Shown piece after piece: positions 1-23,862 of a DNA stretch of 24,209 bases. The stretch spans positions 1 to 24,209 of IMG/VR virus record IMGVR_UViG_3300047553_000193. One strand, 5' to 3'. Under the pieces are notes generated by a model. It worked only from the letters and a program-made list of their open reading frames with translations, was not told the DNA's origin and made no database searches. The stretch's first letter is position 1. Every line of letters starts with the position of its first letter. The stretch comes from a virus. A program made the translations under genes and the position numbers.

Positions 1-1332
1 CGCGCCGCCGTTAGTGGCGTAAATTAAGTTAACGTTTAAAGTAACACACTTTCCAACTCTTGTCCACCTGTAAGAATGATTTGTCGTTCCACTCGGCGCA
101 GTTGTTCCAGTCCACGCGATCGAACCCGTATAAGTTCCTGACGTGTCTTTAAAATATGTAGCCGTTCCGTTAGCTGCTGCGCTAGTTCCGTTAGCCTGAA
201 ACGAATAAGCTGCGAGCTGTTTCGGTTGAAGCGTTGACGTGTCCGAAATTGTTAGCTTGCTATTGATTCGGCTTGAAAGCGAGGCTGTGTCTGTTTCACG
301 TAGATAAGGCGCAAGCATTGCAGTCGTGTCAACTTTGCGTAAGTAAGGCGTAAGCATTGAAGCTGTGTCCGAATATTTTACACGCTGATCAATACGCGCA
401 CTTAGTTTTGAAGTGTCAACGATTGTATAGATGTTTCTGTTTTTCCAAAGGCTTTGAGTATCAGAATAAGCTAGCACCTCGTTATTTATTGGACTTGTAA
501 TTTTAACCGTATGAAGTTCGTCCAATTCAAATCCGTTCATAGGCTTAACATAGATTTGACCGTTTCCGTTATTTGCTCGTTCCACTATACCAACGAAAAC
601 TTGGTGATATGGTTGTATAGGCTTAACCGAAGTTAACTGCCCAGCTATAGAATCCAAATAAAGAATGTCGCCTGAATTATAAGCTCCTGTATTTAATTTA
701 TCAGCCACGCCCTGAGTGATTACGATTCCAGTACCACCTGCTGCAATATCATTTTTAACGATGCCCAAAGTTTTCGAGCTAAATGTGTCGCTTGTATTTT
801 TTGCAAGTTTTACGGACGCTAGATCTCCAGTCGCACCATAAAGAAAAACAGCTTGTCCTTTTAGTATTGTAAATGATTCGGCGTTTCTTACCGTAGCCTT
901 AACTACGGACGCTGTATCATTCCCTGTTGAATCTTTAAACTGATATACCTCAGTTCCATTTCTGTAAGAAAATACAGAATCAGATCTACGCTTAACGGAA
1001 TCCAATTTTAAATTGATTCTGTTTGAAAGCGAAGTCGTGTCAGTTGAACCACCGCCACCGCTTACCTGTGACCAGCTTAACGTCTTAGGGTTGTAAGTAT
1101 AGAAACGATTATTGCAGGAATCAAAAGCTATTGCTCCCGATCTGCTCGCAAACTGAACGCTTTTTAAAGTAGGCACGCCGCAAACCGTCGGGATCTGCAA
1201 CGTAGAGTCAAACTTCATGCGCGGAGCTTGATATCCGTACTGAGGCATGAGCTGGTAAACTTGTCCGTAACTGACTTGACAAAAAATGACAAGTCCTAAA
1301 ATGGTCAAAAACTTTATGTAGGGAAGTCGCAT
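1..1332 (-). CDS. Tail fibre / receptor-binding-like protein with N-terminal signal peptide (3' end outside window)
   Basis: The frame is open from an ATG at 1332 to the left edge (444 codons, no stop). The start MRLPYIK is followed by a hydrophobic core FLTILGLVIF and then CQVSYG before Gln24, which looks like a Sec signal peptide with a Bacteroidota-style G/Q cleavage site. Residues about 155-275 form a beta-rich segment (ILKGQAVFLYGA, SSKTLGIV, GDILYLD, FVGIVERA) that I recall from phage fibre or decoration proteins. It is followed by ELHTVKITSP and VLAYSDTQSLWKN. Residues 319-357 hold three 13-residue repeats. The last visible part (SYRWTRVGKCVTLNVNL) resembles C-terminal fibre domains of Bacteroidota phages. 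The gene overlaps the upstream one by 19 nt, and AGGAAAATTTGGAAA precedes the ATG. Host binding is inferred from these repeats and from the position after the connector genes. The secretion signal is unusual for a virion protein. Confidence 0.75.
   Translation of the reverse strand, partial: MRLPYIKFLTILGLVIFCQVSYGQVYQLMPQYGYQAPRMKFDSTLQIPTVCGVPTLKSVQFASRSGAIAFDSCNNRFYTYNPKTLSWSQVSGGGGSTDTTSLSNRINLKLDSVKRRSDSVFSYRNGTEVYQFKDSTGNDTASVVKATVRNAESFTILKGQAVFLYGATGDLASVKLAKNTSDTFSSKTLGIVKNDIAAGGTGIVITQGVADKLNTGAYNSGDILYLDSIAGQLTSVKPIQPYHQVFVGIVERANNGNGQIYVKPMNGFELDELHTVKITSPINNEVLAYSDTQSLWKNRNIYTIVDTSKLSARIDQRVKYSDTASMLTPYLRKVDTTAMLAPYLRETDTASLSSRINSKLTISDTSTLQPKQLAAYSFQANGTSAAANGTATYFKDTSGTYTGSIAWTGTTAPSGTTNHSYRWTRVGKCVTLNVNLIYATNGGA
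262..378 (-). repeat. Three tandem 39-nt repeats (13 residues each) in the fibre gene
   Basis: Three consecutive 39-nt units (340-378, 301-339, 262-300) encode KYSDTASMLTPYL, RKVDTTAMLAPYL and RETDTASLSSRIN. The first two are close copies and the third keeps only the DTAS-L core. A related segment (DTTSLSNRIN) occurs near residue 98 of the same protein. Such SDTASML-type repeats are, from memory, common in long surface or fibre-like proteins of Bacteroidota and their phages, and probably form a repetitive shaft. Confidence 0.7.
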
Positions 1333-1742
1333 TTTCCAAATTTTCCTGTTAAGTAAATATTTAAAGTCATTGAAACGCCTGAGAGATAGTCCTCGAATTT
1401 CTCGCTGATCCCTTCCCAACTTACCGAAGCATCAAGCGAAATTGTTTGATCATTTCTCAAAGCCGAAATAATATCGTTGGCGATCATTAACTGATCATTG
1501 ATAACCTGTTGCTCAAACTCGCCCTCTACTCCTGACTTATCCAAAAACCAAAAGGTAATTGAATAAACAATTTCACGCCCTGCGTTAAGCTGTCCGTTAT
1601 TCACAACGAATGAAGCTACAGGCATGACGGGCATTTCAACCCAACCGAGCCACTCCGTTGGACTTGCAAACCTTGTCGTTTTTATTATCGGGTTGCTTTC
1701 CAGTAGGTCGGTTATCTTTTGTACTATCTGATTGTAGGTCAT
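1314..1742 (-). CDS. Tail-terminator / tail-completion-like protein
   Basis: This 142-residue protein begins MTYNQIVQKITDLLES and alternates helical ends with a strand-rich middle (VASFVVNNGQLN, IVYSITFWFLDK) followed by a helix (NDQLMIANDIISALRN). That size and pattern, and its position between the connector-like gene and the fibre gene, match tail-terminator or head-tail completion proteins of Bacteroidota phages. An in-frame TAA lies just upstream of the ATG at 1742, so the start is fixed. Its end overlaps the start of the fibre gene. The functional call is inference from layout and secondary-structure pattern; I see no catalytic motif. Confidence 0.55.
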   Translation of the reverse strand: MTYNQIVQKITDLLESNPIIKTTRFASPTEWLGWVEMPVMPVASFVVNNGQLNAGREIVYSITFWFLDKSGVEGEFEQQVINDQLMIANDIISALRNDQTISLDASVSWEGISEKFEDYLSGVSMTLNIYLTGKFGKCDFPT

Positions 1743-1796: not shown

Positions 1797-2588
1797 TTAT
1801 CTATATTGGAAAATAAATTTCTCGTTAGCTATTGTAACGTCCCCAGTTGGTAGCGTTATTACTCCGTTCACGATTTGCAGATATTCGGTGTCAGCCGTTG
1901 GCGAACTGGTTATGTTTTTGACAAGTCCTGAACGAACAGCCAAAAGGATAGTACGCCCGATAAGCGTTGAAATTGTGAAGGTCGTTAACCCTGCGTCCGC
2001 TGTATAGGTTGTGTAGTTCGGAGCAGCGTAACCGCTCGTACTGTTCGCATAACGTGGATATCTTAAAGAATCCGTATCTCCTAAATATATCGGCGAAGCG
2101 TAGCCTTTTTCCTCAGGGAAAATAACGTCGAAGCCTGATCCTGTATTTAAATACTCATAGTAAAGCGTATAGTTTTCCTGAAGGTATTTAATCATGCGCG
2201 TTTTATAAAATTCAGCCATGCCTAAATACTTTGATTCGAGCAACTCCAAATCAGCGCGTGAGGGTGTATTGCTTTCCTCGCTTGTCTTTTGCAAAAATCC
2301 CTTACTGAATAACTGAAAACCCATAGTCATTGGGAGCATTGCCATTGTGTACCACACAAGCGCGTCCGTCAAATAATCATTGATTAACGTTTCCTCATCA
2401 GGTGTTAAGTTATCTCCTTCAACGCCTAGCTGTAAACGCTTGTAAAGCTGTGAACCTAAAGCAGGCTGTATGTGAATATCCCCAGCGACTTTAATCATTG
2501 GAAATAATTGCTTTGCGTCGATCTGATTCGAAGCTCCAGTCCTTTCTTTGAAGGTCTGCTCAGTTATAAAGATTATGTTCTTACTCAT
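1797..2588 (-). CDS. Head-tail connector (adaptor)-like protein
   Basis: The 263-residue protein starts FITEQTFKERTGASNQIDAK and continues with mostly helical sequence (ALGSQLYKRLQL, TPDEETLINDYLTDALVWY) to about residue 150. This resembles the DUF6712-type connector or ring proteins of Bacteroidota phages (family recall, not a search). The C-terminal about 70 residues are strand-rich and end in KFIFQYR, like a small added beta domain. Its ATG overlaps the portal stop by 4 nt (ATGA), so the two are probably translationally coupled. This fits an adaptor that binds the portal ring and forms the neck. The placement beside the portal is the strongest support. Confidence 0.65.
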   Translation of the reverse strand: MSKNIIFITEQTFKERTGASNQIDAKQLFPMIKVAGDIHIQPALGSQLYKRLQLGVEGDNLTPDEETLINDYLTDALVWYTMAMLPMTMGFQLFSKGFLQKTSEESNTPSRADLELLESKYLGMAEFYKTRMIKYLQENYTLYYEYLNTGSGFDVIFPEEKGYASPIYLGDTDSLRYPRYANSTSGYAAPNYTTYTADAGLTTFTISTLIGRTILLAVRSGLVKNITSSPTADTEYLQIVNGVITLPTGDVTIANEKFIFQYR

Positions 2589-4672
2589 TTTCTTTTGTAT
2601 AGTTTAGATACCCAACGATGACGACAATACTCACGCGGTTCGTCAGTACGGGGATTTGTGTACCAACCGCCGCGACGCTCCCAAACTGAATAACCAACAC
2701 GCGCTGATATTGATTCGATGTCTGAACGTGACCACGTTTTAGCTCCGCTCATTCTCATTAACTCCTTACAAAATGGTCTGCTAGTGGATGAATCTTTGTC
2801 GCTAAAGCCTGGCATCCATTCATAAGTATAACGGATAAAAAGCTCAGTTACTTTTGATTGCTTACCTCCGAGTTCGCTCAATGGTTTAAGCACCTCGAAA
2901 ACAGGCGTTTCATTTATTGCGCTTGCAGTAGTTTTAAGGATTCCACCTTCGATAAAATCGTCAATGATATTCTGCACGAGTTCCTGATCTAGCTTCAACG
3001 ATCTAGCAATAACAGGAACGGTTATATTTTTATCTTTTTGAATCAAGTCTAAAACGTTCGCCTGAGCTTGATTAAGTTCGTCCGCAAACATTCCGCGCTG
3101 ATATTTAACCTCCTCGAAGTCGCTAGCTCCGCATTCGCTAAATTCATGAATCAATCGAGCGTCCTCGTCCATGCTGAACTTTTGTATTTCGTCCTCAGTC
3201 AAAGGATCGTCGTCAATCCCTAGAAACGTGTTTACGTCCGCGTCAGTAAAGCCAAAGCCATTTTTCAACATAAGCGAAGCCTGCGCCTTAGATAGTTTGC
3301 CGTTGCCGAACTGCCTAACTATTCGCATGACGTTTTGATATTGACGCCCTGTTAAGTTACGAATAGCCTCATTCGATTCCATTGGAACGGATTGAGGAGC
3401 TGATGTAACCCCCGAAGGCTGCGCAGGAATAAGCCCAGCGAGCGATCTGATTTCGTCGGGTGTCATTGATTCGAGAACCTTATTTGCAACCAGCGGAGAC
3501 AAGCTATTGATGTTGTCAGAAATAACCTGAGCCTGTGTCTTGATTGCGTTCTCTAGAGGTTCGCGTCCCATTAATTGACGGATCTCATCCTTGCTCAAAT
3601 TTTGAGACATGATGTTTTCAGTAAACTCAAACTTCAAAGGTTCAACAGGTTGGATTGTAAACTCTCCAGCCTCGCCTTTTAAATTTCTTAACTGAGTGAA
3701 CATTTCGTTAAACTCAGCCTGACGTTCCTGCACGTATGTGTTGTTGAAGATCTCGTAACTGTCGCGGATCTCGCTGCGACTTCCTAGCTGCCCCTCAGTT
3801 TTGATTCCCATAAGCGCAGGACTAACGATCTGATGCGAGGCAAAAATTTCCTGTTGAATCAGATTGTTTATGTTTGTGAAATCCTCCTTAGTCAGCATTG
3901 TCGTTCCTAAGTTCTGAATGTCCGCGCTGTTCTCACGCGAAGGGTTGAACATAATAACGACACGCTTTCCGTCGTGTCCTGTAAATTTCCTCAACAAACT
4001 TTTTTCAACTTCGCCCTGCTTTTCCTCGTGAGGCATTCCGTTGTTGAGATTGATCAAAGTCGAACCAACAAAACCCTGCTTTGCGTTCCCTAAAATATGG
4101 CGGCTGACTTCGATATCCGATTCGATGTAATTCAAGCCTTGAAAATATGAAGGAAGCGGATAAACTTCGGACGTACTATTGTATTCTTTTACATAAAGGA
4201 TTTGACTTCCAAATTTTTCATTGGTGTTGAATGCTGGATATTCGCGAGGCTTTTCTTTATAATCAAGCCAGTCATTTTTTACGTAATAGGTAGATAGATC
4301 TTTACTTACCCGAACCTTTGCGAAGTCGATGTGATAAACCTCCGCGATCTGTCCGATACGATTCCAAATAACCTGTAAAAAATAACCACGAAAAAGCTCA
4401 TCGTCTTTGATGCACTTTTTCATTACAGCGTTCCACGATTCGCCGCGCGAGTTCGCTAAGCCTGCATCCTCAAAACCTTTGCCATAAATGTAAGTAACCT
4501 TACTTTTTACAATAGCTCCGTGCTTAGGTGACTCATTGTAAAGATCAATCAAATATTTTGGGTAGTTGTTCAGTTCGCCAAATTCAACCCAACCCTTGCC
4601 CTTCTTTTCCTCAAAGCGAGGCTGAACAGCTCGGTCAAATTTTAGAACTATGTGCTTATAGTTATTGTCCAT
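2585..4672 (-). CDS. Portal protein with C-terminal winged-helix-like and Cys-containing extension
   Basis: Residues 1-350 look like a phage portal core: FGELNNYPKYLIDLYNESPK, HGAIVKSKVTYIYGKGF near residue 51, and the helix-rich LIQQEIFASHQIVSPALMGI followed by SEIRDSYEIFNNTYVQ (about 271-315), typical of the portal stem and wing region. The portal forms the dodecameric DNA channel at one capsid vertex. The protein is long (695 aa) because of additions. Residues about 535-585 (NVLDLIQKDKNITVPVIARS, IIDDFIEGGILK) read like a winged-helix domain. Residues 605-695 carry FCKELM and EYCRHRW and resemble a small MuF-like minor head domain. The gene overlaps the preceding gene by 11 nt and the following connector by 4 nt. 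The portal call is firm; the nature of the extension is inference. Confidence 0.85.
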   Translation of the reverse strand: MDNNYKHIVLKFDRAVQPRFEEKKGKGWVEFGELNNYPKYLIDLYNESPKHGAIVKSKVTYIYGKGFEDAGLANSRGESWNAVMKKCIKDDELFRGYFLQVIWNRIGQIAEVYHIDFAKVRVSKDLSTYYVKNDWLDYKEKPREYPAFNTNEKFGSQILYVKEYNSTSEVYPLPSYFQGLNYIESDIEVSRHILGNAKQGFVGSTLINLNNGMPHEEKQGEVEKSLLRKFTGHDGKRVVIMFNPSRENSADIQNLGTTMLTKEDFTNINNLIQQEIFASHQIVSPALMGIKTEGQLGSRSEIRDSYEIFNNTYVQERQAEFNEMFTQLRNLKGEAGEFTIQPVEPLKFEFTENIMSQNLSKDEIRQLMGREPLENAIKTQAQVISDNINSLSPLVANKVLESMTPDEIRSLAGLIPAQPSGVTSAPQSVPMESNEAIRNLTGRQYQNVMRIVRQFGNGKLSKAQASLMLKNGFGFTDADVNTFLGIDDDPLTEDEIQKFSMDEDARLIHEFSECGASDFEEVKYQRGMFADELNQAQANVLDLIQKDKNITVPVIARSLKLDQELVQNIIDDFIEGGILKTTASAINETPVFEVLKPLSELGGKQSKVTELFIRYTYEWMPGFSDKDSSTSRPFCKELMRMSGAKTWSRSDIESISARVGYSVWERRGGWYTNPRTDEPREYCRHRWVSKLYKRK

Positions 4673-5693: not shown

Positions 5694-6653
5694 TTAGATA
5701 GCAGCTTTAAACTTAACACATTCGTTTGTGAATGCTACGTTTACGCCTACTTTGAAAGATACCTTTGTTCTGATCTCGTCGTTATCCATTGAGTACCAAA
5801 CGCGGTAGTTTGATTCCTCGTCTTCCAAATCAACCGCCAAAGCTACGTTGCCCATGCTGAAAGCGTAAGCGTCGCCTGTTCCGTTCAAACCATGAACAGC
5901 GATTATTTCGATATTAGTGCCTGGCAGGATGAAACTGTTAGCGTTCTCGTCCTGTGGATTGTAAGCGAACAAGTTCAAAGCGCGGTAAGCCATAATCAGC
6001 AAGCGATACCAGTCGTAACCTACGAAGATCTTAACGTCTCCTTTTCCGATTACTGCGGCAGGGATTGCTTTGTAAATACCCTCAGTTGCAGCGATTACGT
6101 TAGATTGAGTAATGGTTGTGATTGTAGCTACTCCTGTGAATCCTGAAACGTTTGCGTCAACTGGAGAACCTGCGTCGATCAATTTACTCAATCCGTCAAA
6201 CTTATTCAAGTTACCTGTTGCTCCTGTAGCGTCACCCTGCCAAATTGCAGTTTCCAACTGAGCAGCAATACGAGCGTTTTTCTTAGCTAAGTAAGCGTCC
6301 AAAAATTCAGTATTACCGAAGTCGGTGTAATTTGATCCTGCCTTCAAAGCCTCCTGAGTAAAGTAAGTTTCGAAGTTCTTAGGGCAAATGGTTTCAGATA
6401 CCTGAATCTTACCAACAGTCACAGTACGCTGAGTGAAGGTAGTAGTTCCTGAGGGATTGTAACCGCAGCCGTCAGTCTGAAAAGCGGCGTCGGTGTCCAT
6501 TAAAGGAATCGCTGCTGAAGATTTTACTCCAGTCAAAACGATACCGTTATCCATGATTAATTGTTGAGTCTTCGCGCCGATAACCGCTGAGGTCAAAAGC
6601 GGACGTACTCTTTGTGATGTATAAGCCGTTAAGCCTGTTAAGTCGAGTGCCAT
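5694..6653 (-). CDS. Major capsid protein (HK97-fold type)
   Basis: At 319 residues the protein has the length and texture of an HK97-fold capsid subunit. It has an extended N terminus (MALDLTGLTAYTSQRVRPLL), a polar beta segment (TTTFTQRTVTVGKIQVSETI) leading into a long helix (NTEFLDAYLAKKNARIAAQL) like the E-loop and spine helix, and a C-terminal strand segment (NYRVWYSMDNDEIRTKVSFK) typical of the P-domain. It lies right after the scaffold-like and protease genes, the standard head-maturation order, and is followed by a strong terminator. No obvious N-terminal delta domain is visible, which fits a separate scaffold gene. I assign it from layout and overall pattern; no single motif is diagnostic. 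Confidence 0.85.
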   Translation of the reverse strand: MALDLTGLTAYTSQRVRPLLTSAVIGAKTQQLIMDNGIVLTGVKSSAAIPLMDTDAAFQTDGCGYNPSGTTTFTQRTVTVGKIQVSETICPKNFETYFTQEALKAGSNYTDFGNTEFLDAYLAKKNARIAAQLETAIWQGDATGATGNLNKFDGLSKLIDAGSPVDANVSGFTGVATITTITQSNVIAATEGIYKAIPAAVIGKGDVKIFVGYDWYRLLIMAYRALNLFAYNPQDENANSFILPGTNIEIIAVHGLNGTGDAYAFSMGNVALAVDLEDEESNYRVWYSMDNDEIRTKVSFKVGVNVAFTNECVKFKAAI

Positions 6654-8266: not shown

Positions 8267-10351
8267 TTATCCGATTCTAGCAGCGCGGTTAAGCCTTTGT
8301 ATTCGTTCCTGACCGCTTGAAACGTCAGATTCAACTACATAAGCGCGAGCCGCTGCATTACCGATTTGATTTACTTGTGATTGATTTAAAAGTGTTGATT
8401 CTGTTTGTGGCTGTAAAGGTGGGGCAGCTGTTCCACCGCCTGCGCTTGCACCGCCTACGTTTCCACCTTGTGGACTTCCACCGCCTGAACCGCCGATACC
8501 TTTCAAGCCTTTGACGGTTGCCGCTACTGAGGTCGCGATACCGATCGCGGCTCTTACTTTGTTAAGTCCGATTTCAGTAGCAGACAAAGCCTGACCGCCT
8601 GGAATTAAAGCATATTTTGCAACAGCAGCCGCGTTCGCTTTTTGAGTATCTAGAATGATCCTCGCGATTGTGATCGCATTTTCAGCAATTAAGGCAGCGC
8701 GTTGAAGTCCTTTATTTTTTTCGCCTAATTGCTTCGCTAGATTTACGATCCCTGACGCTACGTCAAAGGCAGCGTTTTGAATGTCCTCTTTTGCTTTCGC
8801 TTCCGCTTCGGCTATTTTAGTACGTTCCTCAGCAGCCTTTTTTTCGTCCGCTGTTTTTTTGTCTTGTAACTCCTTAGCAGCAGCGGCTTCTTTGTCTGCG
8901 CGCTCCTTGTATAGTGCCTCTGTTTTAACTCGCTCCTCTGCATCAATAACAGCTTTTCGCGCATTGAATTCCTGCTCAGTTATTAATCTGTCCTGAAGTA
9001 GCTTAAGCTGTGCCTCCGTTTGCTTTTCGTTTTGGTAGCTAATTTCTAACAGCTTACGGTCGAAGTCGCTTTTTGCCCTCGCTAAACTTTCGCGGTATCT
9101 AAATTCGTCTGATTCCTTTTCCTGCTGTGCTAATTTCTCGGCGTGTTCCTTTTGCTTTTTAAGTTCCTCTTGCCTTTTCTCCTCAGCTGTCTTTGCTTTT
9201 TCGTCTGCTAATTTCTTAGCATCCTCAGCGGCTTTTTTGTCGATCTCCTTAACCTGTAATTCTAAGCCTGCCTTTTCGTTTTGAAGTTTTAACAAAGTAT
9301 CCTTTGCTTCCTTTACTACCTTGTCTCCTTCGGCTTTTGTTTCCGCTGGATCAAATAAAAATTTTGCAACCCCTTCGGCTGCTGCCTGATTGAGCTTTGT
9401 GATTTGATCGTTAATATTTTCCGTCGTGATCTTACCGAATCCCAACGTTTCGCTTACCTTATTTGCTGCACCTATAAGCGCATCAATCGGAGCGGCTAAA
9501 ACACGCAAACCGATTGCAGCGATTTCTAAACCTGTGCGAGCTAATTGTTTTGTAAAGTTGAAATTTCTTTCTGCTGCCGCTTGCCTTTGCTTCGCGATTG
9601 CTTCCTCACTTTTTACAGTCGCCTCCGCTGCCTTTATAGTTGTGTCGTATTGTTTGAGCTTAATTTGCAGGATATCCTTTTCAGATTTACCCTGAAGTTT
9701 AAGGATATTATCCTGTGCGCCGATCGTGTCTAATTTCTTTTTCTGAGCGTCTAAATTATCCTTTGTCTTTTTATTTAGCTTTTCCTGTTCGTCGCTTACT
9801 CCATTTACCGCCGCTTTAATGTCATCCCAATACGCGTAAATCGTACCCAATGCAACAACGAGCAAACCGATACCAGTCGAACCAATACCTTTTTGAATTG
9901 CCTTAAAAGCGTCAGCCGCCTGTTTGCCTAAAACTTTAAAAGCGTCTCCTGCTTCTCCAATAGCGTTTAGTCCCTGAGTCAATGCAAGTGCGCCCTGTAC
10001 TTTGACAAGCGTTTTCTCTAAGTCTTTAGATTCTGAACCGAATAAAGCCTGCGCTCCCTGTAAGGCAGCGAAGCCTCCAGCGACGCCCTGAATAGCTGCG
10101 CCAAATGCTTTAAATTTAGCGTCAGGATTATAAGCGTCAGTCAATGCCTTAGCGTCTCCGATCTCGTCCTTTAAACCTGCGACACGCTTCGCCGCCGCGA
10201 CCGCTTCCGCTGAGGTTTCCCCGAACTTTTCGCGCATTGCGATCAAGTCCTGAGTTGCCTCACGAAGTTGCTTTTTTATGCTTCCAACGGAACTTTGCGC
10301 CTGTGATCCGTCAACCGTTATTTTTACGCCTACTTCCGTATTAGTTGCCAT
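8267..10351 (-). CDS. Tail tape measure protein
   Basis: The 694-residue protein is dominated by Lys/Glu/Ala-rich coiled coil (about 340-560). It has a hydrophobic segment near residues 157-173 (IGLLVVALGTIYAYW), a second hydrophobic stretch near residues 270-295, a Gly-rich linker (GGSGGGSPQGGNVGGAS), and a C terminus ending AARAYVVESDVSSGQERIQR. That terminal motif is the one I associate with tape measures of Bacteroidota phages. Tape measures set tail length and probably help DNA cross the envelope. The start overlaps the preceding gene by 11 nt. It follows the tail-associated genes and precedes the protease gene, an unusual tail-to-head order. Confidence 0.85.
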   Translation of the reverse strand: MATNTEVGVKITVDGSQAQSSVGSIKKQLREATQDLIAMREKFGETSAEAVAAAKRVAGLKDEIGDAKALTDAYNPDAKFKAFGAAIQGVAGGFAALQGAQALFGSESKDLEKTLVKVQGALALTQGLNAIGEAGDAFKVLGKQAADAFKAIQKGIGSTGIGLLVVALGTIYAYWDDIKAAVNGVSDEQEKLNKKTKDNLDAQKKKLDTIGAQDNILKLQGKSEKDILQIKLKQYDTTIKAAEATVKSEEAIAKQRQAAAERNFNFTKQLARTGLEIAAIGLRVLAAPIDALIGAANKVSETLGFGKITTENINDQITKLNQAAAEGVAKFLFDPAETKAEGDKVVKEAKDTLLKLQNEKAGLELQVKEIDKKAAEDAKKLADEKAKTAEEKRQEELKKQKEHAEKLAQQEKESDEFRYRESLARAKSDFDRKLLEISYQNEKQTEAQLKLLQDRLITEQEFNARKAVIDAEERVKTEALYKERADKEAAAAKELQDKKTADEKKAAEERTKIAEAEAKAKEDIQNAAFDVASGIVNLAKQLGEKNKGLQRAALIAENAITIARIILDTQKANAAAVAKYALIPGGQALSATEIGLNKVRAAIGIATSVAATVKGLKGIGGSGGGSPQGGNVGGASAGGGTAAPPLQPQTESTLLNQSQVNQIGNAAARAYVVESDVSSGQERIQRLNRAARIG

Positions 10352-10778: not shown

Positions 10779-12916
10779 TAATATAGTGTGTTTATAACCC
10801 TTAACAGTTCAACCTGACAAACATCGTCCTCAGTAAAGTCCGAGATTTTAATCAGCCTGTAAAGTGTTCCGTCTATGTATATAAATTTCCCAAAATTTAG
10901 ATTGAAAATATCCTGCTCATTTAATTTCATTTTGCAGGTTATCAATCGCGAATCCTTGTCGGTTATCTCCGCGAAGTAAGGCGAATAGTAAACATTAAAA
11001 AGATTATTCGACAAAGTACCCTGATCAAAAGTGGTATAAATTTCTTTAGGCGCGCCAAAGTTAAGGTCAGCCTGAGGGTTATCAGGGTTATCCATGTGAC
11101 CAGCGTAACCGTACGAAGTCAACGCGCTGCTGAGGTTTGTCCTAGTCGCGCTCTTAATATACCATGTAGGAACGCCTGTTATTTTTTTAGCCTGCAAAAT
11201 TCGGATGTTGTGTTCTGTGCTTTCCTCAGCGTTGTTATTTCGCTTGTAAATTACAGGAAGCACTTTACTTTGATTCGCATATTTAACCACAGGCGTAGGA
11301 CTGAAAATTACCTCCAACTTTTGCGTGTCCTTTGTGAACTCTAGCTGATTGTCAAAAACCCTGTCTCCGTAACCTTCGTTATATTTTTTCTTATATTGGT
11401 CGTTATAATAGTCTGAATCTGATCTATATCCTAGCTGATAATAACGCGAATTTATCTCAGACATTGGCTTGATCTTAATAGGCTTTGAATGATCTATCTT
11501 ATCAGACCAGTCTAAGTAAGAACTCGTATCAGTATCGTAAAAATCTACGTAAGGCTCAATGATCAGCTTCTTTTCTGTGTACTTATCCTCAACTGCGATA
11601 AGGTTAAACATTTTCATAACGGAGCTAAAAAAATCCTTTTGCAAAATGTTTGCAGGTAGCGTTCCGTTTACGATCAGATAATCTCCATAAGCCGCAGGAA
11701 TGAATGACTGATTTTCGTTAAATATCCGAATGCTGGAATTCGTTTGATTTATTGAGAAGTCAATAACCGCGTCAGCTGGTCCTGTACTTCCTGCAATATT
11801 TAACTGAATTTCTAGGGTATCGTTTTGAGCTAGTTCGACGTTTAAAGATTCGCCTCTCATTCCTATATTGTAAAACATAGGGAAAGGCGTAGTTGCACCC
11901 CACGCTGAAACTGGTCCACCGATCTTATCGCTATCCCACAAAATCTCACTTCCATTTTTTACTAGCGATAAATAAACGTAAGCCTCGCCGTATGTAGGAA
12001 AAGAATCTGTCGGGGCTGATACCGCAAAAGTTCCATTGAAGCTAAGGACTATCCCTGCCGTTATTGTTGTCGCAGGCGTATAAGTGAAAACGCGATCGTC
12101 AGGCGTTGTAAATGTTGTAGTTTGTATATTTTTAAGCTCAATCGTTTCAAGTCCGCTAACAGCTCCGAATGATCTCGTCGGATTTGCCGCTAACTGAATG
12201 ACACTTTTATATTGTAGCCTGTTTTGATTATTCGGTACAATTAATCGCTTGAAAAAAGCGGTATCCATGAAAGTTGACTCCAAAGTGTAGCCAGCTTGCT
12301 CAGCGATTTTCATCATGTACTGACGGACATAAAAGGCAGGTCTAAACGCTGTGAAGTAGTAACTATTTTTTGCGAAGTCAGGATCAGATAACGGACTCAC
12401 GTTTCCATAATCAATCAAAGGATAATAGTAACCAGTTCCACCACTTACGCCGTTCCAGCTGTTTGTTATGTTAGTCACGTTCCACGTATGGTCATATTCG
12501 CTAAAATCTAAGTCCGTTAATTTACGCGACCCCATAGCGTTATAAAAACCCCCTAGCTCGCCAAATAAAGCGACTTCGTATTCTATGTAGTCGCCGTCAA
12601 TAATGATCTCCAATAAGCGCATGACGCCCTTCATAACCTGCAAGCCGTTTATTTCCATTCGAGCCTTTGCAGATTTCGAAGCGTTAAAATTGTAGTTAAC
12701 ATTCGGAGCAATATCGGCTGTGAAATTTGAATTACTAAACTCAAAAATATTCCCTAGCAATCTGTTATTGTTAGCCGTTCCTGGCAGTACAATCGTTTTA
12801 GTAAACGACGTCGATTTGCTGTCCACGTTGTTAAGATCGTCAACAGCATAGGTAGTTTGTTGGCTAAAATCTTTAGTAAGATCAAGCTCCTGATTTTCGA
12901 TAAATATTCGTGTCAT
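10778..12916 (-). CDS. Large tail/baseplate-like structural protein
   Basis: The 712-residue protein starts MTRIFIENQELDLTKDFSQQ and contains SKSTSFTKTIVLPGTANNNR near residue 33. That is an N-terminal signature I recall from tail-associated proteins of Bacteroidota phages, in which a beta domain is followed by a central domain (LQKDFFSSVMKMFNLIAVED near residue 430). The rest is mainly beta strand with many aromatic residues. No lysozyme, peptidase or glycosidase motif is evident. It lies between two other tail-like genes, with 4-nt and 1-nt overlaps. It may be the baseplate hub or distal tail protein; the size fits, the evidence is contextual. Confidence 0.65.
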   Translation of the reverse strand: MTRIFIENQELDLTKDFSQQTTYAVDDLNNVDSKSTSFTKTIVLPGTANNNRLLGNIFEFSNSNFTADIAPNVNYNFNASKSAKARMEINGLQVMKGVMRLLEIIIDGDYIEYEVALFGELGGFYNAMGSRKLTDLDFSEYDHTWNVTNITNSWNGVSGGTGYYYPLIDYGNVSPLSDPDFAKNSYYFTAFRPAFYVRQYMMKIAEQAGYTLESTFMDTAFFKRLIVPNNQNRLQYKSVIQLAANPTRSFGAVSGLETIELKNIQTTTFTTPDDRVFTYTPATTITAGIVLSFNGTFAVSAPTDSFPTYGEAYVYLSLVKNGSEILWDSDKIGGPVSAWGATTPFPMFYNIGMRGESLNVELAQNDTLEIQLNIAGSTGPADAVIDFSINQTNSSIRIFNENQSFIPAAYGDYLIVNGTLPANILQKDFFSSVMKMFNLIAVEDKYTEKKLIIEPYVDFYDTDTSSYLDWSDKIDHSKPIKIKPMSEINSRYYQLGYRSDSDYYNDQYKKKYNEGYGDRVFDNQLEFTKDTQKLEVIFSPTPVVKYANQSKVLPVIYKRNNNAEESTEHNIRILQAKKITGVPTWYIKSATRTNLSSALTSYGYAGHMDNPDNPQADLNFGAPKEIYTTFDQGTLSNNLFNVYYSPYFAEITDKDSRLITCKMKLNEQDIFNLNFGKFIYIDGTLYRLIKISDFTEDDVCQVELLRVINTLY

Positions 12917-15473: not shown

Positions 15474-16628
15474 TTAGACAAACCGATACACGCCCTGGAA
15501 CTTATGGTCATTTTTGCACCTTACCGCTAAGGCTAAAGCGTTCACACAGTCGTCATGGAATCCGCTCGGAGCGTTATATCTTACCCCTGTTGAAGTGAAC
15601 ACGTACTCAAAAACATTAAGCTCGTCAGTTATTTTGCCCTCAGGGAAACCAATCTCCTGCTTATGTATAGCGGACGCGAGTAGCTCCATGATTTGCTGTT
15701 TTGATGTTGACGTGTACTTAAAGCCGTGCATCGCGCTGAATGATCTTTGCAAGTCCTCAGTAATGGCATCCCCTACGCCTGTGCTGTCAATCATTACAGG
15801 ACGTGAACGGTCAAGCGTAAGGATATGCTCACGCGTTGACTTCCAATCTTTTTGGAATCGGTCAAACTTGCACACGTGACCATGCATATCTAAGCCGATA
15901 ATGACTGTCCAGTCATGCGACTTCGCGAGGTCAATTCCGTAATAAAGTGGGGGTAAGCTTGACAAAGGTTTTACACAGGTTCGGATATGTTCACTCCCAA
16001 AAGGGTTTGAAGCGTTCTCCATAGCGTTCGCCATGTACTCCTGTTCAAATACCGCTGAGGGTAATTGATTCCGCGCCTCGTCGATTTCCGACTTATCTAT
16101 GTAGGGGTTATCGTAGGTCGTAAATTTAAAAGCTGACCATTCAGGCTCACCACCTTTTTGGAATAGCGAATAGAAATAATTTTTCCCCTTAGGCGTTGAA
16201 AGGAATAATGCGCGACCTTTATAGTCCGTCAGCGTTGGACGGATCGAGTTCAACCAGCCGTCCTCTAGGTTCGGAATGAATGAAGCCTCATCCACAACTA
16301 CTAAGTGAAATTTGCGACCGCGTAAGGAATCAAGCCGTTCCCCTGTAAAAAACATTACTGAGCCTTCGTTTGGGAAGGTAATAGTTAAGTCGCTTTTGTT
16401 ATGCTCAAACGGAATGACCTTTGTTAGCTGTTTAAAGAAGGTTTTAGCGAGTTGGTAGGTTGGGGTAATGTAAGCGACTGCGCTCCCTTTTATCGCCTCG
16501 AAAATGATCTCTAATTGCGCTAGTTCCGATTTTCCGAAACGCCGTCCACACATAACGACACGAAAGCGCGACTGATCGTCAAAGATAGCTTGTTGGTTTT
16601 CGTGAAGTTCGGGGATGTGTATCTGCAT
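15474..16628 (-). CDS. terL: Large terminase subunit
   Basis: This ATP-driven motor packages DNA into the prohead and cuts it. The ATPase domain shows Walker A (GRRFGKSE, residues 28-35), Walker B with the catalytic glutamate (HLVVVDEAS, 108-116), and the coupling motif (STPKGKN, 144-150). The RNase H-like nuclease domain has acidic metal ligands at YYGIDLAKSHD (Asp233), VMIDSTGVGD (Asp281) and FHDDCVNALA (Asp359/360). At 384 residues it is at the short end for TerL but has every motif. The ATG lies one base after the stop of a 25-residue peptide and is preceded by the small terminase gene. Confidence 0.95.
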   Translation of the reverse strand: MQIHIPELHENQQAIFDDQSRFRVVMCGRRFGKSELAQLEIIFEAIKGSAVAYITPTYQLAKTFFKQLTKVIPFEHNKSDLTITFPNEGSVMFFTGERLDSLRGRKFHLVVVDEASFIPNLEDGWLNSIRPTLTDYKGRALFLSTPKGKNYFYSLFQKGGEPEWSAFKFTTYDNPYIDKSEIDEARNQLPSAVFEQEYMANAMENASNPFGSEHIRTCVKPLSSLPPLYYGIDLAKSHDWTVIIGLDMHGHVCKFDRFQKDWKSTREHILTLDRSRPVMIDSTGVGDAITEDLQRSFSAMHGFKYTSTSKQQIMELLASAIHKQEIGFPEGKITDELNVFEYVFTSTGVRYNAPSGFHDDCVNALALAVRCKNDHKFQGVYRFV

Positions 16629-17364: not shown

Positions 17365-17656
17365 TCTCGAAGTTTTTGTAAACCGTTCCCGATACGTTTA
17401 TCTTATTAGCCACAGGATAACCTTCAAAAATTATGCCGTCCTTATCTCCGACAAGTTTAACCTGCTTTGAGTTCGCCTCACGTACTGCAACAGGGAAAGG
17501 GAAAAGGCTGTTTTCAATCCTTACTTTGTCAATCATTCGAACCCATAAGCGCGAGCGTTCACGTGATCTACTGCCGTAAAGGTAAACGGAAGCCATTTGA
17601 ATCTCCTTAAATACAGCCATAAGCTGTTTCTTTTCTGTGTTGTAAAGTGCGATCAT
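17336..17656 (-). CDS. Small protein of unknown function
   Basis: The protein (106 aa) has a basic helical N-terminal half ([40 protein letters not shown]) and a beta-like C-terminal half ([20 protein letters not shown]). The first part is faintly reminiscent of NUMOD-type DNA-binding segments, which is weak and may be chance. It overlaps the methyltransferase stop by 4 nt (ATGA) and the HNH start by 29 nt. A DNA-binding role would fit its neighbours but is not shown. I do not recognise a family. Confidence 0.6.
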
Positions 17657-18765
17657 ATTTCTACTCCGTTCTTTTTTATTTTTAAATCAGGATCAAGTGC
17701 TTTCATTCTGTCGATAATTACCTGACAGTATTTAGGATCGAGTTCCATACCGTAGCACTTGCGTTTAAGTTGATGTGACGCTACCATTGTGACTCCGCTT
17801 CCTAAAAAATAATCAGAAATAAGTTTTGATTTTTCTCCAAACTTTTGAAAGCACCAAGATACAAGTTCTACTGGCTTCTGCGTTGGATGCACCCTATTTA
17901 CTTTTTCAGATGCTTTTGTAAATTGACGAACTACGCTCCTTGCATTGCACCATGCAAGTTCGCAGTCCGTTTGGTCACTACCTCCATTGTTCTTATCCCA
18001 AACTATCCAGCATTCAGAATCAGGTAAACAAGAAGAATAGTAATTTGCTCCCCACCATATTTGAACTGCGTCTGGGAACAAAGAAAATATCAGGTTAAAT
18101 GAATCTTTAGCTGCATTGGTATCAGAATCCCCTAAAATATCCTTGCCATATTTTTCTTTCAATACTCCACTTTTTGTAACAGCATTCATACCATAAGGAG
18201 GGTCTGTAAAAACCATGTCAGCCTTTTCTCCATTCATTAATTTCGCTACTGCGTCGCTGTCTGTTGAATCCCCACAAAGCAAACGATGCTCCCCTATTTC
18301 GAATAGGTCGCCGAGTACAATATCCGTCTTAATTTCGTCAGGCACTTCGAAGTTATCCTCCTCCGCCTCTAGTGTTTCAGGTTCAAAGTTCGGAATATCC
18401 AACCCCCACTCCGTCAACTGCTCAGCGTCCCAATTATTTGCTAGATCGTCCCAATCCCACTCACCATATCCTACGTTATCTTTTATAATAAATTCGCGCT
18501 TTTGTTCTTCAGTCCAATCGTCTGCCATCGTAACCCAAGTCTCAGGGATTTCTGAGTAGCTTAATTCCTTTAAAGCCTTTAATCTCATGTTGCCTCCGAG
18601 CGGATAAATTTTCCCGTCTGTGTCAGTTACGCAAACAATCGGACGCTTGTCTAACATATCGGGAAACGCCTCGATTGATTTGACGAGCTTTTTAAATTTA
18701 TCGTCCTTAATTAACCGAGGGTTATTCGGGTTCGCTTTGATTTTTGAAAGTTTTATTTTTCCCAT
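17653..18765 (-). CDS. ParB-like domain fused to a DNA methyltransferase
   Basis: Residues 1-100 are a ParB/Srx-type domain ([20 protein letters not shown]; box II-like [11 protein letters not shown], residues 55-65). Residues 150-370 are an amino-DNA methyltransferase with [13 protein letters not shown] (DPPY 188-191, motif IV), HPTQKP (293-298) and [11 protein letters not shown] (motif I-like AdoMet site) followed by CYGMELDP. Motif IV precedes motif I, a beta-class order for adenine or N4-cytosine enzymes. Phages with this fusion probably methylate their DNA to evade restriction or mark packaging sites. No partner nuclease of a restriction system is nearby. The overlap with the MazG-like gene is 13 nt. 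Target site unknown. Confidence 0.9.
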
Positions 18766-18977
18766 AGATCGTTTGTTGTTTCATGATACCTACCGAATTT
18801 AATCGGCTGCTGGCTTTTTAATTTCTCAATGTACAAAACCGCGTCCATAAGTTCCTCCTGCAAATGGTTTAAATAGTCGTCCTTATCGTTTTCGTATAAG
18901 GTCGTTCCGTATTTCTTTATTCCTATTTCTGAACGCTGGTTAAATTTATCAATTACCTGTTGAACTATTTTATCCAT
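18753..18977 (-). CDS. MazG-like NTP pyrophosphohydrolase-like small protein
   Basis: The 74-residue protein is nearly all helical and contains [20 protein letters not shown], then [20 protein letters not shown]. The EExxD-type metal-binding helix and the 'GIKKYGTTL' loop are typical of phage MazG-like proteins, which hydrolyse nucleotide triphosphates. It has only one complete acidic helix, so it may be a reduced member or bind only. It overlaps the methyltransferase by 13 nt and the upstream glycosyltransferase by 8 nt. A role in nucleotide pools or stress signalling (ppGpp) would be inference. Confidence 0.6.
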
Positions 18978-19602
18978 TTTTTTTATTTACGTAGTAATTG
19001 CCTGTCCTGTCGTACTCAGAAATAATATCGTTGTAAATTGAATGCACGCGGATCAGGCTTTCATCTTTCATTTTTCTGTATTCCGTTCCATTGCCTACGT
19101 CATGACCGATATGCTCAGCTTCTAAAATTGGAATATAGTAATTTATAAAACCAGCCTTTTCTGCTCGATAACAAAAATCTGAGTCCTGCATTCCGTATGG
19201 ATCATGATCCTCGTTATAGTATCCTATTGTGTCAATTAGCTTTCTCGACATGATACAATTTCCAAAGGTTGCAGGCGTTTGATGTATAGGCATTCCATTT
19301 AAAAATGAAATAGGAGGCAAATCTAAAACAGTATGAAAACCAACTACGCCGCTGTTTTCAATTTTCTTTAAATAGCTAACCATAACAGCGAGCCAGTCCT
19401 CAGGCATTCGTATGTCGTTGGCGCAGGTAACAACTGCATCGTATTGTTTAGTTTTCTCTAGCCCTTCATTTAAAGCCGCTGCAACGCCAAAGCGATCTAT
19501 TGTGAATAAGTCAAAAGGATAGCCAGCCTTACCTACTGATTCAAGTGCTTTTTTTGTGTGTTCGTGCCTTGAATAGTCTAAAAAAATTATTGCTACTTTC
19601 AT
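18970..19602 (-). CDS. Glycosyltransferase family 2-like (GT-A)
   Basis: The N terminus MKVAIIFLDYSRHEHTKKAL is the beginning of a GT-A nucleotide-binding fold, followed by GVAAALNEGLEKTKQYDAVV. The expected DxD motif is replaced by TCANDIRMP, with Asn-Asp. A downstream YGMQDSDFCYRAEKAG phrase supplies the acidic catalytic base seen in family 2 enzymes. It would transfer a sugar from a nucleotide donor. The 210-residue length is short but complete for GT2 enzymes of phages. It starts 4 nt inside the LpxA-like gene (ATGA), so the cassette is co-translated. The acceptor could be host surface glycan, phage DNA or a virion protein. Confidence 0.8.
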   Translation of the reverse strand: MKVAIIFLDYSRHEHTKKALESVGKAGYPFDLFTIDRFGVAAALNEGLEKTKQYDAVVTCANDIRMPEDWLAVMVSYLKKIENSGVVGFHTVLDLPPISFLNGMPIHQTPATFGNCIMSRKLIDTIGYYNEDHDPYGMQDSDFCYRAEKAGFINYYIPILEAEHIGHDVGNGTEYRKMKDESLIRVHSIYNDIISEYDRTGNYYVNKKNG

Positions 19603-20075
19603 TTATTTTTACTTAGGTATCGGGCAGGATTCCCAACGTATTTAGAGTTCTCTTTTGTTTCAAGTCCCTTTGTAACTACTGCGCCCATTCCAATCATGCA
19701 GCCTTGCGCGATTTGTTGCCTTTGATGTATAACAGCGTTCAAACCGATATTAGTTCCGTTCCCAATAATTGCATGACCTCCGATTTTAGCACCGCAGGAA
19801 ATAGTAACGTCGTCCTGAATTACACAATCATGACCGACATGGCTGTGCTTCATTAAATAACAATTTTTACCGATTTCAGTTTTCCTAACTGCTCCGCTGT
19901 CAACGGTAACATGACCAGTCAGGCGGCTGCCTGATTTGATCAAAACTCCCTTATCGATTCCTTCCATGCCTTTCCACTCAGCAGGAAAACCGATAATGCA
20001 AAAAGGACCGATGTAAACGTCGTCCTCAATTGTAACGTGTTTTCCAATCTGTGCTGTTGGGTGTATGTATTGCAT
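19599..20075 (-). CDS. LpxA-like left-handed beta-helix acyltransferase
   Basis: Hexapeptide repeats run the whole length (HPTAQIGKHVTIEDDVYIGP; EIGKNC; VIQDDVTISCGAKIGGHAII). KHSHVGHDC at residues 76-84 carries the pair of histidines (His78, His82) that align with the catalytic histidine region of LpxA, and IGFPAEWKG matches the LpxA loop before the active site. At 158 residues it lacks the C-terminal helical domain of full LpxA (about 260 aa), and ends GNPARYL like sugar O- or N-acyltransferases. It would acylate a sugar-containing acceptor. It lies between two glycosyltransferases, so it probably decorates the same glycan. Confidence 0.8.
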   Translation of the reverse strand: MQYIHPTAQIGKHVTIEDDVYIGPFCIIGFPAEWKGMEGIDKGVLIKSGSRLTGHVTVDSGAVRKTEIGKNCYLMKHSHVGHDCVIQDDVTISCGAKIGGHAIIGNGTNIGLNAVIHQRQQIAQGCMIGMGAVVTKGLETKENSKYVGNPARYLSKNK

Positions 20076-20166
20076 TGTTTAAAAGTTTACGGAGTTCACG
20101 CCCTAAATCCTGGTCGTTAGGATATTTCTTAATCAGTTCAATAATTTTATCAAATAATAGATTCAT
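20026..20166 (-). CDS. Small helical protein (46 aa) in the glycan cassette
   Basis: An ATG at 20166 opens 46 codons, 17 nt before the end of the 92-residue CxxC gene, and the frame runs 50 nt into the LpxA-like gene. The product MNLLFDKIIELIKKYPNDQD then LGRELRKLLN is amphipathic and helical, a pattern I recall from small Bacteroidota phage proteins near glycosyltransferases. It fills the 74-nt gap between 20076 and 20150. Function is unknown, and its 3' part overlaps another gene in a different frame. Confidence 0.45.
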   Translation of the reverse strand: MNLLFDKIIELIKKYPNDQDLGRELRKLLNNAIHTPNSTDWKTRYN

Positions 20167-20428
20167 AGTGTCGGTAAGCCATTGATAAAAATTCAGCTAC
20201 ACAGGCAGGGCAGCGTTTATTGTACGTGTGGTGTGGAAAGTCGATTTGATACACACTCAAAAGCTCGTCCTGTGCTTCGTGTGTAAAGTTAATGACTTCG
20301 CCTGATATAACGAAAAGCTCGTAAATATGTTTATGCCTTAAGTAAATCGGCAAACGCTTGTCTTCGGTTTTTGTTAATGTCTCGGAGGCTGTACTTTTTG
20401 ACCGCCCACTCGTGGAGTTTTTCGCCAT
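20150..20428 (-). CDS. Small CxxC protein in the glycan cassette
   Basis: The frame gives 92 residues from the ATG at 20428, but its first about 30 residues lie inside the upstream glycosyltransferase in another frame and look like a shadow. A TTG at 20353 would give 67 residues starting at LPIYLRHKHIYELF, which includes the plausible core. The core contains HHTYNKRCPACVAEFLSMAY, with a CxxC pair and nearby histidines that could bind zinc. It is followed by the 46-residue protein. The function is unknown. A helper or adaptor for the glycosyltransferases is possible only by position. Confidence 0.5.
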   Translation of the reverse strand: MAKNSTSGRSKSTASETLTKTEDKRLPIYLRHKHIYELFVISGEVINFTHEAQDELLSVYQIDFPHHTYNKRCPACVAEFLSMAYRHYESII

Positions 20429-21356
20429 GATCTAAAATTGCGTTTTTATTGTTTATGTAAAAATTCATGTGCCGATACCAATCGTCCTGAGTTTTAACCC
20501 AAAGTACAGGCGCGTCCGCGTCGTCTGAATAGGGAGGCACTCCCTGACAAATTACAGGAACTTTTTTTGAAGCTGCCTCTAAAATTTTTAGGTTTGATTT
20601 GTACGCGCTCCAATCATTTGCTACCAAAGGAATGAGCATAACGTCCGCGCTGTCGTACATTTTCAGGTACTCAGTAACTGGAAGGGTTCTAAGTATTTCG
20701 TGCTTAAGTGATCTGTTCGCCGTCATGAAGTCCGTCATAGTATCCCAAATATGTTTTGAAATACTATTGCTTTCGTCATAACCTCCGATAACCATTTGAA
20801 CGTCGTAAAAGTGACCTTTGAGCCTGCGAACAGGATTTTTTAATATCCTTAAATCCTCAACGTGAGTACATCCACCTGCCCAAAAAAAGCGCACCCTGTC
20901 CAATTCTGTTTTGTTTACCTGAAATTGATCTTCTCCAAAGGGCAAAGCGTTAGGGAAAATATGAACGTTGTTATTGAACTTCCTGACCTTATTCGCAAGC
21001 CGTTCGTGAGTAACGGTAACCATGTCAGCGTCGTAAAGGTTTTTCTCAATTATCGGAGCGTGATGTTTATAGTCCCAATAGTTAATATGGTTTGTAGGTA
21101 GATTCCAGTCGTCGTCGATATCCATTACTATTTTGCAACCGAATCCCTGCCTAATTAATCCGATCTCATTCGAATAAGGGTTAACCCTATTATAAAGGAA
21201 AATGTCAAAGCTATCTCCGATTTGCTCACGCATTAAGGCATTGCTTACCATACCTTCCACGTTATCCATAAAACCCAAAGGAAGCGCGATCCTGTGATAA
21301 GTTACGCCTGAGTCCTTTTGACCAAAGCCGAAAATTTTTATTTTCTTGTCATCCAT
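20331..21356 (-). CDS. Glycosyltransferase, GT-B fold (GT1/GT4-like)
   Basis: The 341-residue protein has a Rossmann-like N-terminal half (MDDKKIKIFGFGQKDSGVTY, KIVMDIDDDWNLP, DADMVTVTHERLANKVRKFN) and a C-terminal donor-binding half (VRFFWAGGCTHVEDL, SADVMLIPLVANDWSAYKSN). The latter includes LKILEAASKKVPVI, the Glu-containing donor motif of GT4-type enzymes. It would move a sugar from a nucleotide donor. It opens the cassette, and its start overlaps the 82-residue membrane gene by 19 nt. Cytoplasmic action is expected because there is no signal or membrane segment. The acceptor is unknown. Confidence 0.85.
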   Translation of the reverse strand: MDDKKIKIFGFGQKDSGVTYHRIALPLGFMDNVEGMVSNALMREQIGDSFDIFLYNRVNPYSNEIGLIRQGFGCKIVMDIDDDWNLPTNHINYWDYKHHAPIIEKNLYDADMVTVTHERLANKVRKFNNNVHIFPNALPFGEDQFQVNKTELDRVRFFWAGGCTHVEDLRILKNPVRRLKGHFYDVQMVIGGYDESNSISKHIWDTMTDFMTANRSLKHEILRTLPVTEYLKMYDSADVMLIPLVANDWSAYKSNLKILEAASKKVPVICQGVPPYSDDADAPVLWVKTQDDWYRHMNFYINNKNAILDHGEKLHEWAVKKYSLRDINKNRRQAFADLLKA

Positions 21357-23139: not shown

Positions 23140-23862
23140 TTAATTAGTACAAGCGCAGTCAAACGCAGGTTTAATTTCGTTTAGATCGTAATTTTTAAAT
23201 AGATTATTTTGAGCATAGTCGCGCATTTGCTTAATTGATATATCCGCAAAGTACTGGTATTTTTTTATCTGTTCCTCATCTTTGATCCACTCGTCAGCTA
23301 ATTCAGGATATGAAGCTAAGATATTCATTATTGCATTTTTCCCCTTCATAAAACATAAAGTACAATTTCCTAAGATCGAAGGAATTTCTAGCGTGTAACT
23401 TTTATTTTTCCAGTATTCGTTAACTATTTGTTTATCTATTTTTTTGTCATATAAAGGGAACGAGTCAACAACATTTTTCCACATTTGTTTTCTACGCTTA
23501 ACCCTTAAAGGTTCATCGTATCTAAAGCCTACCAAATTCTCGTATTTTGAAATACCTAAACTCCTAAGGTATCTCCTGCAAGTTTTTATTTTTAGCTCAA
23601 TGGTACAAAATCTTTTGAAGTTGTTAGGAATTGCATGTTTCTTTTTTAGCAGTTCTCTAAAGCCTCCTTCATATTGCAAGCGAATGACTGGGATATTTTC
23701 GTTAGCTTCAAAATCATTTATAAACTTATATGTTTTCGGGTGTTCACGTCCTGTATCGCAAAAAATTACAAGATCTCCCTGCCTATATTCAAGAATAGTC
23801 ATGTATGCAGAAGTTTTTCCTCCGCTAAAATTTATTATCCTTTGCATAAAATTTTTTAACAA
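23140..23862 (-). CDS. PAPS-reductase-like PP-loop protein with Cys motifs
   Basis: The 240-residue protein starts with a PP-loop (NFSGGKTSAYM, residues 11-21) followed by VIFCDTGREHPKTYKF, the pattern of the phosphoadenosine phosphosulfate reductase/adenine nucleotide alpha hydrolase family. It also has FKRFCTIELKIK, CTLC (Cys167, Cys170) and CAC near the C terminus (Cys236, Cys238), a set of cysteines that could hold a metal or Fe-S cluster. Family members reduce sulfur or handle thiolation chemistry; phage versions are usually of unknown role. ATG choices at 23862 and at 23847 (MQRIINFSGG) are both possible; the second fits the family better. No DNA phosphorothioation partner (Dnd-type) is visible. 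Confidence 0.75.
   Translation of the reverse strand: MLKNFMQRIINFSGGKTSAYMTILEYRQGDLVIFCDTGREHPKTYKFINDFEANENIPVIRLQYEGGFRELLKKKHAIPNNFKRFCTIELKIKTCRRYLRSLGISKYENLVGFRYDEPLRVKRRKQMWKNVVDSFPLYDKKIDKQIVNEYWKNKSYTLEIPSILGNCTLCFMKGKNAIMNILASYPELADEWIKDEEQIKKYQYFADISIKQMRDYAQNNLFKNYDLNEIKPAFDCACTN

Follow-up and report, generated by a model that had tools for sequence, protein, structure and literature searches.

Q-rule proteins and fibres of described phages

Tailed virions assemble in the cytoplasm, as phage fibres usually do. We know of no fibre that joins the virion across a membrane only at lysis, and the literature that we searched contained no precedent for such late joining, nor for signal peptides on the tail fibres of tailed phages.

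The nearest described proteins are those of the Porphyromonas gingivalis phages (proposed Nixviridae), in which proteins of unknown function obey the Q-rule (PMC10367356). Among Bacteroidetes species the Q-value is 71% on average, whereas related phyla have low values (PMC5837995), and pyroglutamate stabilises extracytoplasmic proteins (PMC10653852). The gene studied here resembles those of the P. gingivalis phages in that it codes for a Sec signal that would be cleaved before Gln, adapted to export in Bacteroidota. It differs from them in being the fibre-slot gene of a structural operon, with a signal that three or more phage backbones have in common. We found no description, in the literature searched, of a fibre-slot protein that keeps its Sec signal universally in several backbones.

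Fibres that share parts or position with this protein have been annotated in other phages. The tail fibres of Pseudomonas phage Rollin, Roseobacter phage CRP-6, and Synechococcus phage S-CRES1 contain a homologous PF09956-like middle module (31-40% identity), but the Rollin and CRP-6 fibres, whose starts were read, have no signal peptide and their N-termini are unrelated to that of our protein. In the Flavobacteriia phage P12024S of Nonlabens, gp10 ("similar to putative tail fiber protein") likewise follows a portal and a DUF6712 gene, with the unrelated gp09 between; it has no signal peptide, and its sequence is unrelated to the fibre described here. Flavobacterium phage FCL-2 gp71 does have a signal with Gln directly after it (STYS↓QVGIATTTP) and matches tail-fibre PHROGs weakly; it differs in its small size (147 aa) and its location near the genome end, outside the structural block. 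This hypothetical protein (L128:45363-45806) has matches of at least 99% identity in 78 Flavobacterium phage records. A scan of seven named Bacteroidota phages for a signal on a fibre gene of the structural block found none.

The fibre-slot gene and its signal peptide

The window, that is, the whole 24.2-kb stretch analyzed, is an IMG/VR fragment of a tailed phage. The large terminase (15474-16628) and the tape measure protein (8267-10351) were recognized through Pfam or PHROGs, the major capsid protein (5694-6653) through a weak PHROG match and its position, and the portal protein (2585..4672, minus strand) through PHROG 11226 (E 1.9e-38). On the minus strand from 15474 to 1, the tail-type genes (tape measure) come before those for protease, capsid, and portal, the opposite of the usual arrangement, in which the head genes come first. 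After the portal come, also on the minus strand, a DUF6712 protein (PF20459; 1797..2588), in the same order as in phage P12024S, a 142-aa protein that is tail-completion-like by position (tc142; 1314..1742), and the fibre-like gene (1..1332). This gene starts with an ATG at 1332, overlaps tc142 by 19 bases, and is open to the contig edge, with 444 codons present and the 3' end beyond the contig. Its full-length relatives mostly have about 490-870 aa; the one in locus L002 has 543 aa and is 86% identical to the window protein over the common part.

The tc142 neighbour is kept in every relative that reaches that far, and the gene order in the loci is constant: portal, DUF6712, tc142, fibre, p92, holins, lipoprotein spanin, and lysozyme. 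The fibre-like gene sits in the tail/fibre slot of the structural operon. Comparison of p92 and tc142 with P12024S gp11 and gp09 revealed no homology. The product of the gene before the lysozyme (L008:8510-8962 and its equivalents) has the features of unimolecular spanins, a lipobox (LIAS↓C) and a membrane helix at its C-terminus. Besides the fibre, it alone among the proteins of these loci regularly has a signal peptide.

Residues 1-23 of the fibre-like protein (1264..1332, minus strand) form a predicted signal peptide with n-region MRLPYIK, h-region FLTILGLVIF, and c-region CQVSYG; all relatives keep this type of signal, though not its letters. The small-X-small site SYG directly precedes Gln24 (1261..1263, minus strand), the predicted new N-terminus after cleavage by signal peptidase I, where the Q-rule applies and pyroglutamate is expected. 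The sequence-only reading had recognized a classical Sec signal in these elements; all of them are present in the window. We assigned the signal to signal peptidase I and not to signal peptidase II because the window protein has no lipobox. A lipoprotein signal was rejected: the residue at -1 of Cys18 is Phe (VIFC), and Cys18 is not conserved in the relatives. By its sequence, the protein belongs to the Q-rule substrates of signal peptidase I, and its export and cleavage are well supported.

To find how common such signals are, we applied a rule (charged n-region, 10-residue hydrophobic core, and small-X-small site or lipobox) to 34 loci, in which 364 ORFs on the same strand were 80 aa or longer. 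There were 58 matches, consisting of 33 fibres, 20 lipobox (spanin-type) proteins, and five others (holins or doubtful ORFs). With 58 matches among 364 ORFs, such a signal does not arise often by chance.

A signal followed by Gln was present in 33 of 33 genes of a first IMG/VR set, found from the protein itself and partly chosen by the peptide MPQYGYQA, which lies just after the cleavage site. Because of this choice, the test was repeated with 80 IMG/VR loci that had been chosen solely through their portal gene, some of whose contigs were also in the first set. The gene after tc142 was readable in 61 of the 80 loci, and all 61 encoded a signal and then Gln; 58 passed the rule, L093 and L094 read GFT↓Q, and L068 was frameshifted later. 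The frameshift in the L068 fibre gene (near 11450) lies about 210 bases after the start and is either a sequencing error or the mark of a broken gene.

Gln occupies position +1 in all 64 distinct relatives, and position -1 is Ala, Gly, or Ser in 63 of them (Thr in L093). The signals have 18-24 residues and a charge of +1 to +3. Mean pairwise identity is 33% in the signal versus 81% over the first 34 mature residues; despite this drift, the charge and the strong hydrophobic core are maintained. In such alignments, a drifting signal before a stable mature start is the behaviour of a real signal peptide. It is very improbable that the hydrophobic N-terminus arose by chance or that the start codon is misassigned, considering that the signal occurs independently in several backbones, before about ten different mature N-termini, and that stops lie just upstream of the ATG. 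In most relatives, an in-frame stop lies 1-8 codons ahead of the ATG and leaves no room for an upstream start that would lack the hydrophobic segment, a possibility raised in the sequence-only reading. An internal start giving a signal-less form was also rejected: there is no conserved internal Met, Met29 being Leu in L091 and position 39 varying.

The constancy of Gln at +1 (64/64) indicates that the signal is read by a host enzyme and that the host of the window phage is very probably a member of the Bacteroidota. Phages of Nonlabens, Cellulophaga, and Bacteroides are among the nearest named portal relatives. Two scans of bacterial genome contigs, with the fibre and portal alignments, found no relative, so the host assignment rests on the Q-rule and on these portal relatives.

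Mature domain, distal modules, and phage backbones

The mature N-terminal domain (residues 24-95; 1048..1263, minus strand) is the most conserved part of the gene in the alignment of relatives, with a median identity of 82%; the major capsid protein has 79% and the portal 68%. It contains Cys51 (1180..1182, minus strand) and Cys73 (1114..1116, minus strand), the proposed halves of a disulfide. Leaving out the truncated L104, both cysteines were present in 56 sequences and both absent in seven, and no sequence had a single one. The seven have Asn and Thr in place of Cys51 and Cys73; they look like one clade, and the loss may be a single event. The same pair occurs in the YTPMTAAGY type of N-domain. 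This paired occurrence fits a disulfide formed outside the cytoplasm; a disulfide is the simple reading of the pattern and would need export. An AlphaFold model of the N-domain alone had a pLDDT of 69 and no credible PDB match.

These observations bear on a possible dual fate or leaky export, in which some chains would fold in the cytoplasm and be built into virions with their signal on while others are exported, or in which an uncleaved signal would serve as a membrane anchor during assembly. Such a fate would agree with the general knowledge that phage fibres usually assemble in the cytoplasm, but no sequence has lost the signal peptidase I site or Gln at +1, although the remainder of the signal drifts, there is no conserved internal start, and the paired cysteines point to an oxidising compartment. 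We consider it improbable.

C-terminal of the N-domain, the protein is a mosaic of DTTSLSNRI-type linkers, a PF09956 decoration-like module, and exchanged heads. The capsid-decoration (cement)-like module of the window protein (residues 176-262; 547..807, minus strand) matched PF09956 with 25.5 bits (E 1.8e-5; Pfam gathering cut-off 24) and PHROG 122, head decoration. L002 (27.5 bits) and L004 (28.4 bits) scored similarly, L007 was under the cut-off, and PF09956 was absent from fibres with other middle modules. The start of the C-terminal head (about residues 384-444; 1..183, minus strand) is equivalent to L002 residues 400-543, the rest being off the contig.

Full-length L002 was modelled with AlphaFold (mean pLDDT 62, about 75-90 in the two folded modules). 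Residues 170-294 of the model resembled capsid decoration proteins (HFTV1 8qsy, Pam3 8hdt), with VIA Z up to 11.5. Residues 400-543 resembled reovirus sigmaC/sigma1, adenovirus knobs, and phage receptor-binding heads with Z 6-9, although Z below 8 may reflect a common arrangement and fold likeness is not proof of function. The predicted fold of residues 170-294 is also like that of the phi29 head fibre gp8.5 base and the HFTV1, Pam3, and T1 decoration proteins; these are cytoplasmically assembled capsid parts without a signal, and a common fold implies no common site. A sequence search of solved structures returned only Noumeavirus NMV_189 (E 0.025). The fibre-like body seen in the sequence-only reading is supported by the gene slot, the modules common with annotated tail fibres, and the predicted folds. 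With its conserved N-domain, swapped distal modules, and head-type C-terminal fold, the protein is predicted from sequence and models to be a tailed-phage fibre or receptor-binding protein.

When two fibres were used for scans, their distal modules led to loci of other backbones. We found SP↓Q fibres (signal peptide followed by Gln) in at least two further phage backbones, at least three in all: one with PHROG baseplate-hub genes upstream and another with a major tail protein. These fibres have differing mature N-termini, of about ten types: QWTIINGKQRF, QVNWTNVFGKQRF, QQYTPMTAAGYQ, QYTPMTAAGYQ, QPSQYTPMTAAGYQ, QLTPMTAFQYGF, QDTTKYYTSKDYGW, QPQYPINQTIG, QTKVTDLPTLTGD, and QEPTYNQMRNN. Fibres L146-L150, which have the same middle module and start with MPLEAYSPGTVTVELGS and similar sequences, have no signal, and their N-termini are unrelated to that of the window protein.

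The middle module is common to all three backbones, but each type of N-domain follows a single one. In the loci whose backbone genes could be read, many of them duplicates of one contig under different ids, the MPQYGY type occurred with portal/DUF6712 genes in 90 of 90, the YTPMTAAGY/LTPMTAF/EPTYNQM types with tail-protein genes in 24 of 24, and the GKQRF type with baseplate-hub genes in 11 of 11. This tracking is expected of a docking domain and supports one without being proof; it can alternatively come from physical linkage, as the N-terminus adjoins the upstream gene. The suggestion that the signal is an envelope-targeting trick of the lineage is well supported, and its reach goes beyond one lineage, to several backbones with SP↓Q fibres.

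Destination of the exported protein

We propose that the gene codes for a receptor-binding fibre that leaves the cytoplasm through Sec, is processed in the periplasm, and joins virions when the cell lyses, and we hold the chances of this proposal to be even. The fibre would be made as a Sec preprotein, which the host would export and cleave before Gln24. Glutaminyl cyclase would turn Gln24 to pyroglutamate, giving a pyro-Glu-VYQLMPQYGYQAPR N-terminus, and the Cys51-Cys73 disulfide would be formed in the periplasm; support for these steps is good. With moderate support, the fibre would then trimerise in the periplasm, and the outer membrane would hold it inside until holin, lysozyme, and spanin open the cell. 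The conserved N-domain would dock on virions after their release from the cytoplasm, leaving the variable C-terminal head to face the receptor; this too has moderate support.

Incorporation into the virion, which we infer from sequence comparisons, is favoured because the gene slot is found in different backbones and the N-domain is docking-like, and also because there is no known route through the outer membrane before lysis and, among the structural genes of the window, no other whose heads are exchanged. Two facts speak against it: tailed virions are assembled in the cytoplasm, and P12024S has a tail-fibre-like gene without a signal at a comparable position, so the slot itself does not demand export.

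The main rival is a secreted, non-virion protein, a fibre-like trimeric adhesin or lectin that Sec would export and that would act in the periplasm or beyond it, in superinfection exclusion, receptor masking, decoy release at lysis, or attachment of infected cells. We regard it as a real, if rather doubtful, possibility. The genuine and universal signal of the fibre-slot genes agrees with it, the Q-rule phage proteins of P. gingivalis have been read as outer-surface modifiers (PMC10367356), and Flavobacterium columnare phages have a small Q-rule fibre-like protein outside the structural block. However, the gene occupies the fibre slot of structurally different phages, among the window's structural genes we saw no second one with exchanged receptor-type heads, and the protein has neither a lipobox nor a T9SS domain match that would provide a known outer-membrane route before lysis. 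A search of ten relatives against NCBIfam found no C-terminal T9SS domain; the 3' end, missing in the window, is complete in most of the ten. Surface display or exclusion, offered in the sequence-only reading as a role for the protein, found no support here: there is no lipobox, no recognised T9SS C-terminal domain, and no other recognised outer-membrane route. We consider incorporation into the virion at least as likely as display or exclusion.

If the protein is on the virion, the assembly of tailed phages would gain a late step in another cell compartment, infectivity would be tied to the glutaminyl cyclase and periplasmic disulfide chemistry of the host, and the ways of expressing, engineering, and searching for Bacteroidota phage fibres would change. 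If it is not, a secreted fibre-like protein lies in the slot expected for receptor binding, and host-range predictions made from this gene would be wrong. More broadly, and more tentatively, many tailed phages of Bacteroidota, contractile and non-contractile, might have receptor-binding fibres that pass through Sec, lose their signal, receive a pyroglutamate cap and periplasmic disulfides, and reach the finished particle only at lysis; we put this somewhat short of an even chance.

Outside the structural genes, the window has three other features. A possible cassette for surface glycans lies upstream of the terminase (18970-21356, minus strand), where genes for a family-2 glycosyltransferase, a hexapeptide-repeat transferase, and a group-1-like glycosyltransferase occur together. 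The gene at 17653-18765 joins a ParB-like N-terminus to an N6/N4 DNA methylase domain (methylase by Pfam), and the one at 23140-23862 contains a PAPS-reductase domain (PF01507).
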